From Nitrospirota bacterium (GTDB lineage Bacteria; Nitrospirota; Thermodesulfovibrionia; Thermodesulfovibrionales; JdFR-85), in contig JAYWMQ010000055.1 in NCBI GenBank assembly GCA_035873375.1, positions 1 to 49,784 on the forward strand: a stretch of 49,784 bases of DNA, written 5' to 3'. Position 1 is the stretch's first letter, and the number at the start of each line of letters is the position of its first letter. Made by a program: the position numbers and the translations under genes. The notes beneath the pieces were generated by a model. The model made no database searches and was not told where the DNA came from. It saw only the letters and a list, made by a program, of their open reading frames with translations. Positions 17,505 through 49,784 of the stretch are shown one piece after another.

Positions 17505-18880
17505 TTATTGCTTGAATGATCCCACGTAGTTTTTACCCCAAAAAACCACATATCTTATTGGTGCAATAAAAGCCTTGCTTTGCATAAGAGCAGTTTCAAA
17601 AAGTCGTGGATAAACGAATGATGAAAAATAGCCTGAAACAGCATAGGAAACTACCGTAGCAATTGCTGCACCTACACCTTCATACTGAGGTATTAAAATA
17701 AAGTTCAGAATTAAATTAATAATTGCTCCAAGTGAGGTAGTAAAAAACGAAAACCTGATCAATCCTTCATTTATCAGATACTGAGTCCTTGCAACTCCGA
17801 GGAAAACAAACAAACAAGCCCAGATATGAATGGCAAATATAGTTTCCGCTCCTGCATAAGCATCACCGTAAAGTATACGTATAATAGCGGGAGCTAAAAA
17901 AAAAACGGAATAGAGAGCCCGTATGCAAGGGTAGCGTTTAAATCATAAAACTTCTGCATGCGCTTTTTATAGATTTGCTCATCAAGTTGTTTGCTTTTTA
18001 CAATTGAAGGAAAGACCGACGATGCAATAGCCATGGGTATAAAATACCAGATTTCAGACAGGCGAACTGCTGCAGCATAGGTTCCCACTGCTTTTTTGCC
18101 AATCATCTCTCCCAGCATAATCTGATCTATTTTCAAATAAACTGCAATGGCCAATCCGGCAAAGATGAGCGGCCATGACTCCTTAACAAGGCTTAGTGCC
18201 ACTGAATATGCCGGCCGCCATTGGGTTAAGCTCTTCCCCTTCTTTTTGAAGAAAAAAAGCAGTCCAATCACTGACAGAATGGTTTGAGCTAAATTAATGA
18301 TAACAAAGGCAAGGAGCGATGCACGCTTAAGTATAAGGACAACCTTGGCAACAGAGGTAAGGATAAAAGAGGAATTTTGAGAAAGGACGGTATATTTGGA
18401 AGCAACACGGGATCTGAACCACAGGTCAATTGTGTTAAACGACTGCACGACCAAGCCAAGTCCAAGAATGGCAATCACCAAACGTGTAAGAGTATCCTCG
18501 GGCTTCAGCATGGCAGAGACACTAACCACAACGGCAAGTGCAAAAACCCCACCAGTCAGCTTAAGAAGGAAAGCACTCCCCAGGATTTCGTTCTGACGTT
18601 CCGGGTGTTTGACAAGCTCCCTAACCACTATATTGTCCAGCCCTAATGTAGACAGGACTGAAAATAGTCCCACAAAGGCTATTGCGTAATTCAGAATTCC
18701 ATACTGCTCAGGACCAAGGTAACGGGCTACCCACACGCCAACAAACAGTCCCACACCCATACGCAAAATCCTGTCGGCAAAGAGCCAACCGGCGTTAGTA
18801 ATAACTTTTTGCAGGTTGAGCCGCTTGTCTAACCTTGTGCGAATAAAGGCCGGGAGGAATTTAATCCATGTTTGATTCAT
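17505..18880 (-). pseudogene. wzx: Wzx-type flippase interrupted at a T10 tract
   Basis: Two minus-strand pieces together make a complete polysaccharide flippase of the MATE/MOP superfamily. The first 328 residues (NAGWLFADRILRMGVGLFVG, RYLGPEQYGILNYAIAFVGL, many membrane helices) end SIPFFF and TAG at 17894. From the same place another frame continues LAPAIIRILYGDAYAGAETI and into FVFLGVARTQYLINEGLIRF, the expected C-terminal third, ending at 17505. The coding strand carries ten T in a row at the break; one more T would give a 458-residue protein of normal length. Wzx moves undecaprenyl-linked repeat units across the inner membrane. The lesion may be mutation, a phase-variable state, transcriptional slippage or a homopolymer sequencing error. 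Confidence 0.85.
17896..17905. repeat. A10/T10 homopolymer inside wzx
   Basis: Ten A on the plus strand (ten T in the coding direction) sit exactly where the wzx reading frame breaks. This is the longest single-base run seen in any coding region of the window. Confidence 0.95.
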
Positions 18881-18891
18881 GTTTGATTCAT
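18870..18891 (-). repeat. 11-bp duplication spanning the wzx start codon
   Basis: Read on the minus strand, ATGAATCAAAC occurs twice back to back and is followed by ATGG. The second ATG (18878-18880) is the start of wzx (MNQTWIKF). The first ATG gives MNQT and then a stop whose TGA overlaps the next start. No Shine-Dalgarno sequence precedes either; the upstream side is the GCTNNCAR array. Confidence 0.8.
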
Positions 18892-18900
18892 GTTTATCAA

Positions 18901-19188
18901 GCTAACAGGCTAACAGGCTAACAGGCTAACAGGCTAACAGGCTAACAGGCTAACAGGCTAACAGGCTATCAAGCTAACAGGCTAACAGGCTATCAAGCTA
19001 TCAAGCTATCAAGCTATCAAGCTAACAGGCTATCAAGCTATCAAGCTATCAAGCTATCAAGCTATCAGGCTAACAAGCTATCAAGCTATCAGGCTATCAA
19101 GCTATCAAGCTATCAAGCTATCAAGCTATCAAGCTAACAGGCTAACAGGCTAACAGGCTAACAGGCTATCAAGCTAACAGGCTAACAG
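18901..19188. repeat. 36-unit GCTNNCAR tandem array with two main words
   Basis: Exactly 36 units of 8 bp with no insertion or deletion. By eye 17 units are GCTAACAG, 16 are GCTATCAA, 2 are GCTATCAG and 1 is GCTAACAA, so positions 5 and 8 vary almost in lockstep. The left end is a run of eight GCTAACAG, the middle is mostly GCTATCAA, and the right end returns to GCTAACAG. It fills the space between the 3' end of the four-helix-bundle gene and the wzx start, so it forms the wzx 5' leader or upstream region. There are no spacers and no palindromic repeats, so it is not a CRISPR. Confidence 0.97.
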
Positions 19189-19189
19189 G

Positions 19190-19540
19190 CTAAAGTGCCA
19201 ACTTTTTGTAAAACTTCCAGAGTAATTTCCCCACTTCACTACGTATGGCCTCAATCCCTTCGTATTCTTTTTCCGAAACGTATCCAAGTCTCCTTGAAAA
19301 ATCAAGCAGATATTCTGTTTCTGCCATTGAACCGATTGCAATGCTCACAAATCTTGCAAGCTCTTTATCACCCTTTCTGGCATATCCCTCTACAATATTG
19401 GTTGGGATTGAAAGGGCTGCCCTTCTTAACTGAGAAGTAATGCCGTAGATTTCGTCTTTTGGAAACTTCTTTGTTACTTTATACACTTCAATAGCAAGCT
19501 TATCAGAGGTTTGCCATACGATTAATTCCTTGTAGTTCAT
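19190..19540 (-). CDS. Four helix bundle protein (23S rRNA intervening-sequence / Avd-like family)
   Basis: A 116-residue protein matching the TIGR02436 family end to end: MNYKELIVWQTSDKLAIEVY at the start, FPKDEIYGITSQLRRAALSI in the middle, then PTNIVEGYARKGDKELARFV, and a C-terminal helix ending LLWKFYKKLAL. It is all-helical with basic surfaces. The family includes proteins encoded in 23S rRNA intervening sequences and is structurally related to Avd of diversity-generating retroelements; its cellular role is not established. The ATG at 19538-19540 was chosen because the ten codons before it are repeat-derived. No ribosome-binding site is obvious. Its stop codon is formed by the first bases of the 8-bp array, and another word array lies 13 nt upstream. 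Confidence 0.92.
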   Translation of the reverse strand: MNYKELIVWQTSDKLAIEVYKVTKKFPKDEIYGITSQLRRAALSIPTNIVEGYARKGDKELARFVSIAIGSMAETEYLLDFSRRLGYVSEKEYEGIEAIRSEVGKLLWKFYKKLAL

Positions 19541-19553
19541 GTGTTTTTTAACA

Positions 19554-19619
19554 GGCTGGCAAGCTTGCAAGCGAGCAGGCTATTAAGGCTATCACGGCTG
19601 GTAAGCTAACTGGCTAACA
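19554..19619. repeat. Degenerate GCTNNCA word array upstream of four-helix-bundle gene
   Basis: Consecutive 8-mers GGCTGGCA, AGCTTGCA, AGCGAGCA, then more drifted words to GGCTAACA. The first 28 bp match the array at 36624-36651 at 27 of 28 positions, so the order of words is shared between two distant sites. Confidence 0.85.
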
Positions 19620-19660: not shown

Positions 19661-19882
19661 TCATTTATAGTTCTGCAACCAATCAAGGTTGTTCTTTATC
19701 TCATCCCTTTGTCTTACATTAAGAAAACTTGTTATCCTCCTGATTAATTCCTTTAAAAGAAGATAATCTGTTACAACCATTCCACTGTGTGATATACCTT
19801 TTGCATTGTACCCTTTACTCCTTAAAGCAACTGCTATGCGGTCCGAGAGATCTTCATCTATATAGAGCTTTATTTTCTCCAA
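19661..19882 (-). CDS. DUF5615 (PIN-like) toxin, internally shortened
   Basis: A 73-residue protein. The N-terminus KIKLYIDEDLSDRIAVALRS followed by KGYNA is the first strand and helix of DUF5615 PIN-like proteins, with the acidic D-E-D of the putative nuclease site. The C-terminus (HSGMVVTDYLLLKELIRRIT) matches the distal part of the family. The central segment that usually follows, with the second and third acidic positions, is missing, and the protein is about 35 residues shorter than usual. It overlaps the DUF433 antitoxin gene by 13 nt, the common antitoxin-toxin order. It is probably an inactivated toxin. Confidence 0.7.
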   Translation of the reverse strand: MEKIKLYIDEDLSDRIAVALRSKGYNAKGISHSGMVVTDYLLLKELIRRITSFLNVRQRDEIKNNLDWLQNYK

Positions 19883-20168
19883 GTCTCGCCTTCTGTCTTC
19901 TTAAACCAGTACTCTTCCCTGTTCTCTTCGATTATTCTGTCAATCTCTTCTTTATGGTCATAATAGTAAGAAAGGGCATCATAAACCTGAGCATGCGTAA
20001 TGTGAGGATACATGGCTACTATCTCATCCACTGAATGTCCCGCTCTGTCCATTTCAACAATAAGACTAACACTAACCCTTGTCCCTTCAATTACAGGGTC
20101 TCCTCCACATACATTTTTTTTCTGCTAATATATAGATGTGGCTTTGACTTCTTAACTGCAAATCCCAT
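19870..20168 (-). pseudogene. DUF433 antitoxin with a frameshift at an A8 run
   Basis: The intact 3' part reads GGDPVIEGTRVSVSLIVEMD followed by EIVAMYPHITHAQVYDALSY, the standard DUF433 core (G-x-P-V-I-x-G-T-R and the P-x-L/I-T helix). DUF433 proteins are winged-helix-like antitoxins paired with DUF5615. Upstream of CGGDP the frame meets a TAG. A different frame gives a good start, MGFAVKKSKPHLYISRKK, from the ATG at 20166-20168 with GGGGG just before it. The two join at a run of eight A (20114-20121 on the plus strand); one extra A would give a 99-residue protein. Confidence 0.75.
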
Positions 20169-20215: not shown

Positions 20216-20255
20216 GGCTGACAAGCTAACAGGCTGGCAGGCTTGCAAGCTGGTA
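20216..20255. repeat. Five-word GCTNNCA array
   Basis: GGCTGACA, AGCTAACA, GGCTGGCA, GGCTTGCA and AGCTGGTA follow each other without gaps. The array closes the toxin-antitoxin islet on its 5' side. Confidence 0.85.
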
Positions 20256-20491
20256 AAAAGGACAGGCTACCGCCGTTCCTACGCCATGGGTAGGACTGAA
20301 AGTGGTGGATTGTGTGGCTCCTTTCAGAGCTGGAACCGTTGTTTATAGGCATGATCGAGAAGCCTGACCTGCAATACTTGATCTTGCTGGAGTTACTCAA
20401 ATTGGTTGTGGTCAGGAAGGGTACGTCTTGAACCCTTTGTGTTTAGACACATAAATTATAAAACTTGTCTCCTTATGGTGTCAAGGGAACA
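20256..20491. other. Gap without a supported gene; holds a 32-bp repeat shared with 31428
   Basis: No recognisable gene on either strand. The plus strand has a short open segment with GMIEKPDLQYLILLELLKLV that I cannot assign. At 20453-20484 lies AAATTATAAAACTTGTC plus 15 more bases, matching 31428-31459 at 29 of 32 positions; both copies sit directly left of a tandem word array. This could be the end of a small mobile element, but no partner end was found. Confidence 0.45.
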
Positions 20492-20564
20492 GGCTAACAA
20501 GCTGGCAGGCTATCAGGCTGGCAGGCTGACAAGGGAACAGGCTGGCTAACTGGCTGGCTGGCCA
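20492..20564. repeat. GCTNNCA array running into the 3' end of fcl
   Basis: Words GGCTAACA, AGCTGGCA, GGCTATCA, GGCTGGCA, GGCTGACA and AGGGAACA, then shorter GGCT repeats. The last six codons and stop of fcl (TGQPAS, TAG at 20546-20548) are translated from this array. Confidence 0.85.
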
Positions 20565-31459: not shown

Positions 31460-31476
31460 CAAGAGCAGGGAGGAAA

Positions 31477-31542
31477 TGGAGAAATGGAGAAATGGAGAAA
31501 TGGAGAATCTGGAGAGATGGAGAACTTGGAGGGATGGAGATA
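31477..31542. repeat. TGGAGNNN tandem word array
   Basis: Words TGGAGAAA (three times), TGGAGAAT, TGGAGAGA, TGGAGAAC, TGGAGGGA and TGGAGATA, with two single-base spacers. Related words recur at 31775-31818, 32275-32332, 36205-36256 and 43268-43310. The rest of the 31281-31690 gap holds no gene that I can support. Confidence 0.85.
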
Positions 31543-32961: not shown

Positions 32962-33066
32962 GCAAATGTTAAATGTTAAATGAAGAATAATAAATGCCAA
33001 GTGATAAGTGGCAAGTGGTAAATGATAAATGTCAAATGATAAGTGGTAAATGGTAAGTGGTAAATG
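32962..33066. repeat. NYAARTG 7-bp word array ending in the thpR start codon
   Basis: From 32997 to 33066 ten units follow each other exactly (CCAAGTG, ATAAGTG, GCAAGTG, GTAAATG, ATAAATG, TCAAATG, ATAAGTG, GTAAATG, GTAAGTG, GTAAATG), with three more drifted ones at 32962-32982. Positions 1, 2 and 5 vary; A-A and T-G are fixed. The ATG of the last unit is the thpR start. Confidence 0.9.
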
Positions 33067-33627
33067 AGATGTTTTATTGCTATAGATATCGGGGAGGAGA
33101 TGAAAAAGGAGCTGGATGCCTTTATGAAAGGTCTGAAAAAGCTTGCCCCGGACGTTAAGTGGCTCTCAGGGAATCACATTCACCTCACCCTCAAATTTCT
33201 GGGCAATACAGACGAAAACCTCGTGGAGAGGATAAAGGCATCCCTGGAATCTGTTGCTTCATGCCACAGGAAATTCAATCTGACAGTGGCAGGCGCGGGG
33301 GGTTTTCCGGATTACTCGAGACCCCGTGTCCTCTGGGTTGGAATTAACAGGTCTGAAGAGTTGAATCTTTTGTATAATAATATAGAGTCGGCAATGGAAC
33401 TGCTCGGATTTGAGCGGGAAACGAGAAAGTTCAGGCCCCACCTGACCATTGCAAGGGTGAAGTCACAAAAGGGACTTCCACCTCTGCTGAAGGAAATCAG
33501 AGGATGCAAAGACAAGGAGTTTGGTAAAATAGAAGTATCCGAGGTCTTATTGATGAAAAGCACACTTAAAACCACCGGAGCTGAATATGAAAGGCTTTGT
33601 TCAGCCACCCTGGGGAAGGAGGATTGA
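33064..33627 (+). CDS. thpR: RNA 2',3'-cyclic phosphodiesterase (2H family)
   Basis: A 187-residue 2H phosphoesterase. Both H-x-T/S-x catalytic motifs are present: [10 protein letters not shown] near 39-48 and [10 protein letters not shown] near 124-133. The start [20 protein letters not shown] is typical of the LigT/ThpR class. It hydrolyses 2',3'-cyclic phosphate ends of RNA and can ligate tRNA halves in vitro. There is no Shine-Dalgarno sequence: upstream is the NYAARTG array and the start codon itself is the last repeat unit. The stop TGA overlaps the recA ATG by one base. Confidence 0.92.
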
Positions 33628-49651: not shown

Positions 49652-49784
49652 CCTATCTGACCTATCTGACCTATCTGACCTATCTGACCTATCTGACCTA
49701 TCTGACCTATCTGACCTATCTGACCTATCTGACCTATCTGACCTATCTGACCTATCTGACCTATCTGACCTATCTGACCTATCT
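49652..49784. repeat. Perfect 9-bp tandem array running off the right edge
   Basis: CCTATCTGA is repeated at least 14 times without a single mismatch, beginning 9 nt after the DagK-PAP2 stop and still continuing at the last base. Unlike the other arrays its words do not vary, suggesting recent expansion (or an assembly boundary). Confidence 0.97.

Follow-up and report, generated by a model that had tools for sequence, protein, structure and literature searches.

The wzx locus and its octamer array

The window analysed here, the whole 49,784-nucleotide stretch of a Nitrospirota genome, carries on its minus strand a wzx-type flippase gene (17894..18880; Polysacc_synt, E=1.9e-31). About 20 bp upstream of its start lies an array of 36 gapless octamers (18901-19188), 33 of which are copies of two words: the tally over units 1-36 gives 17 GCTAACAG, 16 GCTATCAA, 2 GCTATCAG and 1 GCTAACAA, with zero insertions or deletions. 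Tandem Repeats Finder extends the same period-8 array to 18901..19193 (36.6 copies, 0% indels). The bases at positions 5 and 8 of the unit depend on each other (Fisher p=6e-7). Like units also cluster: position 5 shows 11 runs where 19 would be expected (p=0.006). For a relaxed two-unit pattern we counted 68 occurrences in the window, compared with an expectation of 4.3, and none of 100 shuffles exceeded 12. The initial annotation had described such an array, made of two words in blocks, with positions 5 and 8 changing together and no unit gaining or losing a base, and each of these features was borne out. As the genome is a 63-contig draft and the window ends in another tandem array, the figure of 36 copies is that of the assembly. 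At 18867-18895 the wzx start site is itself duplicated by an 11-bp repeat (CATGTTTGATT x2.6); translation from the upstream ATG meets a stop after only four codons.

The assignment of the array to the wzx leader was fair as to position, since wzx is preceded by a conserved leader of ~200 nt with a promoter-like sequence (20257-20487), but the array is not private to wzx. It abuts the stop codon of a gene that the initial annotation did not mention, which encodes an S23 protein (23S rRNA-intervening sequence protein, IVP; PF05635, E=1.1e-36) and extends over 19190..19540 on the minus strand. The TAG stop falls in the first TTTAGCC unit. In the reading direction of both genes the array, annotated on the forward strand, comes right after the S23 gene and before wzx, and would be the 3' word array of an S23/IVP cassette on the coding (minus) strand. 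The predicted protein, with solved relatives 2GSC and 2RLD, has 116 aa when read from the ATG giving MNYKELIVWQ, the listed ORF reaching upstream to 19570. Comparison with the homologue of a same-genus genome (G004) yields dN 0.059 and dS 0.302 (dN/dS ~0.20). Diverged octamers (GCTGGCAA GCTTGCAA GCGAGCAG and following; 19549..19612, forward strand) stand on the 5' side of the gene in the same orientation as the 3' array. The two flanks match each other directly (score 44) rather than in inverted orientation (17), and this copy lacks the complementary stem-forming ends that many of its relatives have.

Beyond the S23 gene, a two-gene module with octamers on both borders (19661..20052, minus strand) comprises a DUF433 gene (19870-20052) and a gene for a 73-aa protein with no Pfam match (19661-19882). 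The two proteins are a possible toxin-antitoxin-like pair, and the octamer borders look as if the module were also a cassette. A short octamer run (20217..20256, forward strand) separates it from the conserved sequence (20257..20487, minus strand), in which TTGACA (20484-20479) and TATAAT (20460-20455) are spaced by 18 bp, an arrangement kept in four same-genus genomes. This leader is possibly a regulatory RNA; it has no Rfam match (an Rfam search of 17-37.5 kb gave only a tRNA), and its fold shows little covariation and weak structural support. A gene-less octamer cluster follows (20487..20560, forward strand). In this genome, ~1.4 kb of repeat-flanked insertions stands between the conserved promoter and leader and the O-antigen flippase gene.

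Octamer words in the genome and at the wzx locus of relatives

The initial annotation had proposed looking for the same two words elsewhere in the genome. A search of the whole 2.67 Mb found no match to the exact GCTAACAG pair outside the array, whereas the wider family GCTNNCAR forms runs of 2-4 units on seven other contigs. Within the window, the family also occurs at 19555, 20217, 20493, 36625 and 36774, and we found it in two same-genus genomes (G003 and G004) and in one of the same order (G028). Octamer arrays outside the window were examined in targeted stretches of the genome; in the other arrays, both here and in related genomes, 7 of 103 units are GCTAACAG and 8 are GCTATCAA, these arrays being mixtures of many words. 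A scan of named genomes for three GCTNNCAR units returned Nitrospirota and scattered unrelated matches, some of them likely periodic coding sequence or chance, and 33 stretches of viral contigs with four units were also retrieved. Other short-period arrays are present as well. The window ends inside a perfect 9-bp array (49652-49784; CCTATCTGA x14.8), and another contig of the same genome (C31) ends, immediately behind two octamers (L019), with this 9-mer on the reverse strand, which indicates that such arrays break the assembly. Two intergenic arrays lie near a tRNA-Gln gene, at 31473-31540 and 32964-33067 (GAAATGGA; AAATGATAAGTGG-type).

Three same-genus genomes have wzx orthologues 78-91% identical to that of the window. 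In G002, with wzx DNA 90% identical, the two-gene module and the leader are present together with a few diverged octamers, and the S23 gene and the array are absent. In G001 and G005 everything from 18881 to ~20260 is absent, including the two-gene module and its octamers, leaving ~15 bp and ~83 bp, respectively, between leader and wzx, as compared with the ~1.4 kb of inserted DNA here. The S23 cassette recurs, 83% identical, on a short contig of G004, where it appears to adjoin the leader and not wzx, at a place matching 20487..20560. The simplest reading of these four genomes is that the octamer-bordered DNA entered the wzx leader stepwise; alternatively, G002 may once have had the cassette at wzx and then lost it. 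The octamers in the empty site of G002 make any target duplication at this locus unreadable.

S23 genes stand between short repeats in many bacteria

Most of the other S23 genes that we inspected also stand between short-period repeats, each with its own words. For 72 S23 genes sampled within the order, the adjoining gaps had higher short-period scores than 152 further gaps of those stretches (median 0.69 vs 0.53, p=1e-11), with period 7 the commonest. In the 68 genes used for flank matching, the upstream and downstream flanks of the same gene matched at the 5% level in inverted orientation in 35 cases and directly in 26, where 3.4 would be expected, the shared words being 7-9 bp long and specific to each locus. 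At a fixed score, matches were found for 34/68 S23 genes as against 17/326 ordinary genes (p=6e-18), about half of the S23 genes falling short of a strong match at this threshold. PIN toxin genes, which are likewise small and often horizontally moved, gave 0/29 inverted matches with the same script that gave 66% for S23 genes, a figure on the high side because that set consists of the highest-scoring members. The pattern extends to cyanobacterial plasmids (median inverted flank score 32 vs 16 for mismatched pairs) and to a set from Planctomycetota, Verrucomicrobia, Bacteroidota, Acidobacteriota, Nitrospinota and Deltaproteobacteria (14/30 inverted matches vs 0.8%). Folding of six plasmid cassettes gave 28-42 pairs between the ends, as a raw count made without shuffled control.

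Nearly all S23 copies have neighbours that share one strand, and with such neighbours they are co-directional in 56 cases and opposite in 1; only one S23 gene lies between divergent genes. This bias could reflect selection; ordinary small genes in such positions are also mostly co-directional (70:10). The coding sequence itself evolves under purifying selection, on the plasmids (dN/dS 0.10-0.14) as well as between the window and G004 (~0.20).

Empty sites and target duplications

Cyanobacterial plasmids offer several sites with and without the S23 gene. Relative to Nostoc linckia and N. carneum (97-98% identical), Trichormus/Scytonema have the S23 gene and its arrays inserted at AAAAAGTAAT|TAAC with a duplication of GTAAT, and comparison of pNsp_a of Nostoc ATCC 53789 with pNsp_b and C052 reveals a duplication of TTCTA at the insertion. 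A further insertion, one gene further on in pNsp_c and with different words, is bordered by TAATG/TTATG. The 5-bp duplications are thus exact at two plasmid sites and imperfect, by one mismatch, at the third. In all three of these cyanobacterial cases, the insertion abuts the stop codon of the gene before it. Where related cassettes occupy three distinct plasmid sites, the DNA they have in common is confined to the stretch from ~-40 to +14 around the gene, and one plasmid (L287) has an S23-less inverted word hairpin where a related plasmid (L272) has an S23 cassette. In Picosynechococcus PCC 7003 an S23 cassette lies between cas10 and cmr3, in an operon that PCC 7002 has without the cassette. 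No clean target duplication was found at the Picosynechococcus, N. edaphicum, Calothrix and Aulosira sites. Within Nitrospirota, the relatives of one locus (L232) lack the S23 insert but their flanks are too diverged to read a duplication, and the search at another (L188) gave no clean empty site. The dispersed matches of the L232 query in G022 had been candidate word arrays and were rejected, as they correspond to a separate palindromic repeat, CCCCAAAAAATCTAACGATTTTTTGGGG, found at dozens of places in G022 and also in G027.

Presence/absence polymorphism at otherwise near-identical sites is observed both at wzx (the window genome, G000, vs G002) and at three cyanobacterial sites (A, B and F). 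The only gene inside the unit is S23, and no transposase, recombinase or reverse transcriptase could be tied to it.

A probable small insertion cassette in the wzx leader

We consider the array most likely (probability about 0.75) to be the expanded 3' end of a small insertion cassette, namely a free-standing S23 element resembling an rRNA intervening sequence (IVS) and located in the wzx leader. Such a cassette would consist of one S23/IVP gene with arrays of 7-9 bp words directly before its start codon and directly after its stop codon, it is probably mobile as a whole, and it may be a free-standing relative of the rRNA IVSs that carry S23 genes. It would live in operon transcripts where, by likeness to rRNA IVSs, its complementary ends, or direct arrays such as those of the window, may be bound or processed at the RNA level, possibly with the help of the S23 protein. 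In the lineage of the window, one S23 cassette would have come to lie in the wzx leader, after which its 3' array would have grown by unequal crossing-over or by slippage of multi-unit blocks, with a two-word, indel-free result. Gene-less octamer runs could have been generated where recombination between arrays removed the gene, or where arrays moved on their own. Against this reading stand the direct, not inverted, arrays of the window locus, the lack of an enzyme tied to the unit, the four sites with no clean duplication and the S23 genes with no strong flank match.

The array might instead have been the target and not a part of what was inserted, if word arrays arise and spread independently by slippage and recombination and S23 genes preferentially insert into them. 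Octamer runs devoid of S23 genes at many places in the genome, the octamers in the empty G002 site, and the presence of word arrays at a minority of other gaps agree with this scenario, to which we give a minor share of our confidence. Against it, cyanobacterial sites A, B and F had no words before insertion, the words came with the gene, and related cassettes bring their own arrays to different sites.

Possible growth of the two-word mosaic

The initial annotation had considered slippage unable to produce a two-state array and had invoked gene-conversion-like exchange or selection for an 8-bp spacing. The first inference did not hold up, and neither exchange nor selection is needed to explain the mosaic, though either might have played a part. 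In simulations of block duplication and deletion with a mean block of 2-4 units, starting from an existing pool of words, mosaics like the observed one appeared in 12-21% of the runs, whereas single-unit slippage produced that type of mosaic in none. These simulations were simple and unfitted and demonstrate sufficiency only. With ready-made words and block duplication, positions 5 and 8 would differ together because whole units are copied from a pool already holding both words. A comparable gapless two-word mosaic (GGTGACA/GGGAACA, with GGGAAGA) is found beside an S23 gene on a plasmid of Anabaena sp. 90; the G004 counterpart of the window array has off-register stretches.

Since block duplication and deletion reproduce the mosaic, an ordinary microsatellite might suffice, that is, an 8-bp repeat of the wzx leader grown by slippage beside an S23 gene that is there by coincidence, in a genome where short-period arrays are common (such as the CCTATCTGA x14.8 array at the contig end). 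We regard this as improbable: the octamers flank the S23 gene on both sides, gene and array are jointly absent in G002, and the flank statistics relative to ordinary and PIN genes disfavour it. A regulatory contingency locus, in which selection maintains the array so that its length or word order tunes wzx expression, would agree with its position just before the wzx start and with its probable inclusion in the RNA transcribed from the conserved promoter (20484-20455). Nevertheless, this wzx is kept in three relatives that lack any such array, and the array is far from the promoter hexamers, which makes switching through promoter spacing unlikely; we consider such a role quite improbable. Exchange of a gene-conversion type between the two words, or selection that keeps the spacing at exactly 8 bp, would explain their arrangement in blocks with zero indels but is highly improbable, as both words pre-exist in other arrays, block duplication is enough, and the other arrays of the family are many-word mixtures with the G004 counterpart partly off-register.

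Relation to known elements

S23 genes are known from IVSs of 23S rRNA genes, for example in Leptospira and Coxiella (PMC4990558, PMC11270868), the Coxiella IVS being a 428-nt element with a 28-bp terminal stem and processed by RNase III (PMC4990558). The function and origin of these elements have been called unclear (PMC4990558), and the S23 protein has been reported to be homologous to the DGR accessory protein Avd (PMC10053308). The cassettes share with S23-encoding IVSs (PMC4990558) the single S23/IVP gene, a size of ~430 nt, pairable ends, a sporadic distribution and a suspected mobility. They differ in lying between protein genes (the window copy between wzx and the polysaccharide operon leader, not in an rRNA gene), in having arrays of 7-9 bp words as ends, which in the window copy are direct and not inverted, and in the target duplications read at some of their empty sites. 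By analogy, the window element may work like an IVS, but we do not class it as one. Small intergenic size, target duplications at some sites and the lack of an own transposase recall MITEs and REP-type repeats, as does the gene-less hairpin of L287, although the ends of the cassettes are tandem word arrays that vary by locus and not the fixed terminal inverted repeats of an IS family.

Short degenerate intergenic units also characterize the heptameric SSRs/STRRs of cyanobacteria and Xanthomonas (PMC4692102); the window array differs from them, including the 7-bp degenerate intergenic tandem units of cyanobacterial STRRs, in its 8-bp unit and in bordering a gene. The Xanthomonas heptameric repeats form 70-75 inverted pairs, lie 28 nt behind the upstream ORF and are mostly found between co-directional ORFs; they and those of Nostoc have been described without mention of S23, in a paper stating that detailed literature on heptameric repeats does not exist (PMC4692102). 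STRRs may be gene-less derivatives of S23 cassettes. In the literature searched, which left subscription papers mostly uncovered, no publication connected S23 genes with short tandem repeats, and a prior description is possible.

More tentatively, and with slightly less than even confidence, we suggest that S23/IVP genes across bacteria ride on widespread tiny transposase-less elements with word-array ends, inserted sense-wise beside the stop codons of operon genes, and that these elements and their gene-less remnants are a main source of unexplained 7-9 bp repeats (STRRs, heptameric SSRs) and of the reported association of S23 with CRISPR-cas operons. S23 cassettes may explain why many bacterial genomes carry such repeats. 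Linking S23/IVP function with the excess of heptameric repeats would provide a concrete element with defined ends, empty sites, target duplications and an orientation rule, as well as a natural system where tandem arrays grow and shrink.

A simpler reading is also available for S23 genes as supposed partners of cas operons, in which 23S_rRNA_IVP genes have been listed as having a possible CRISPR-associated function (PMC3936711, PMC10910872). The Picosynechococcus copy belongs to the same family and has cas10 and cmr3 as its neighbours, the arrangement described for Pleurocapsa (PMC3936711, PMC10910872); the PCC 7002 operon without S23, together with the repeat flanks, suggests insertion and not a CRISPR-associated function.

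Other S23 genes occur in cas contexts on plasmids of Pseudanabaena galeata (L267) and Anabaena sp. 90 (L271), where they are located between cas6 and cas4 with long 7-bp arrays. A near-identical Dolichospermum plasmid has unrelated DNA in that place.
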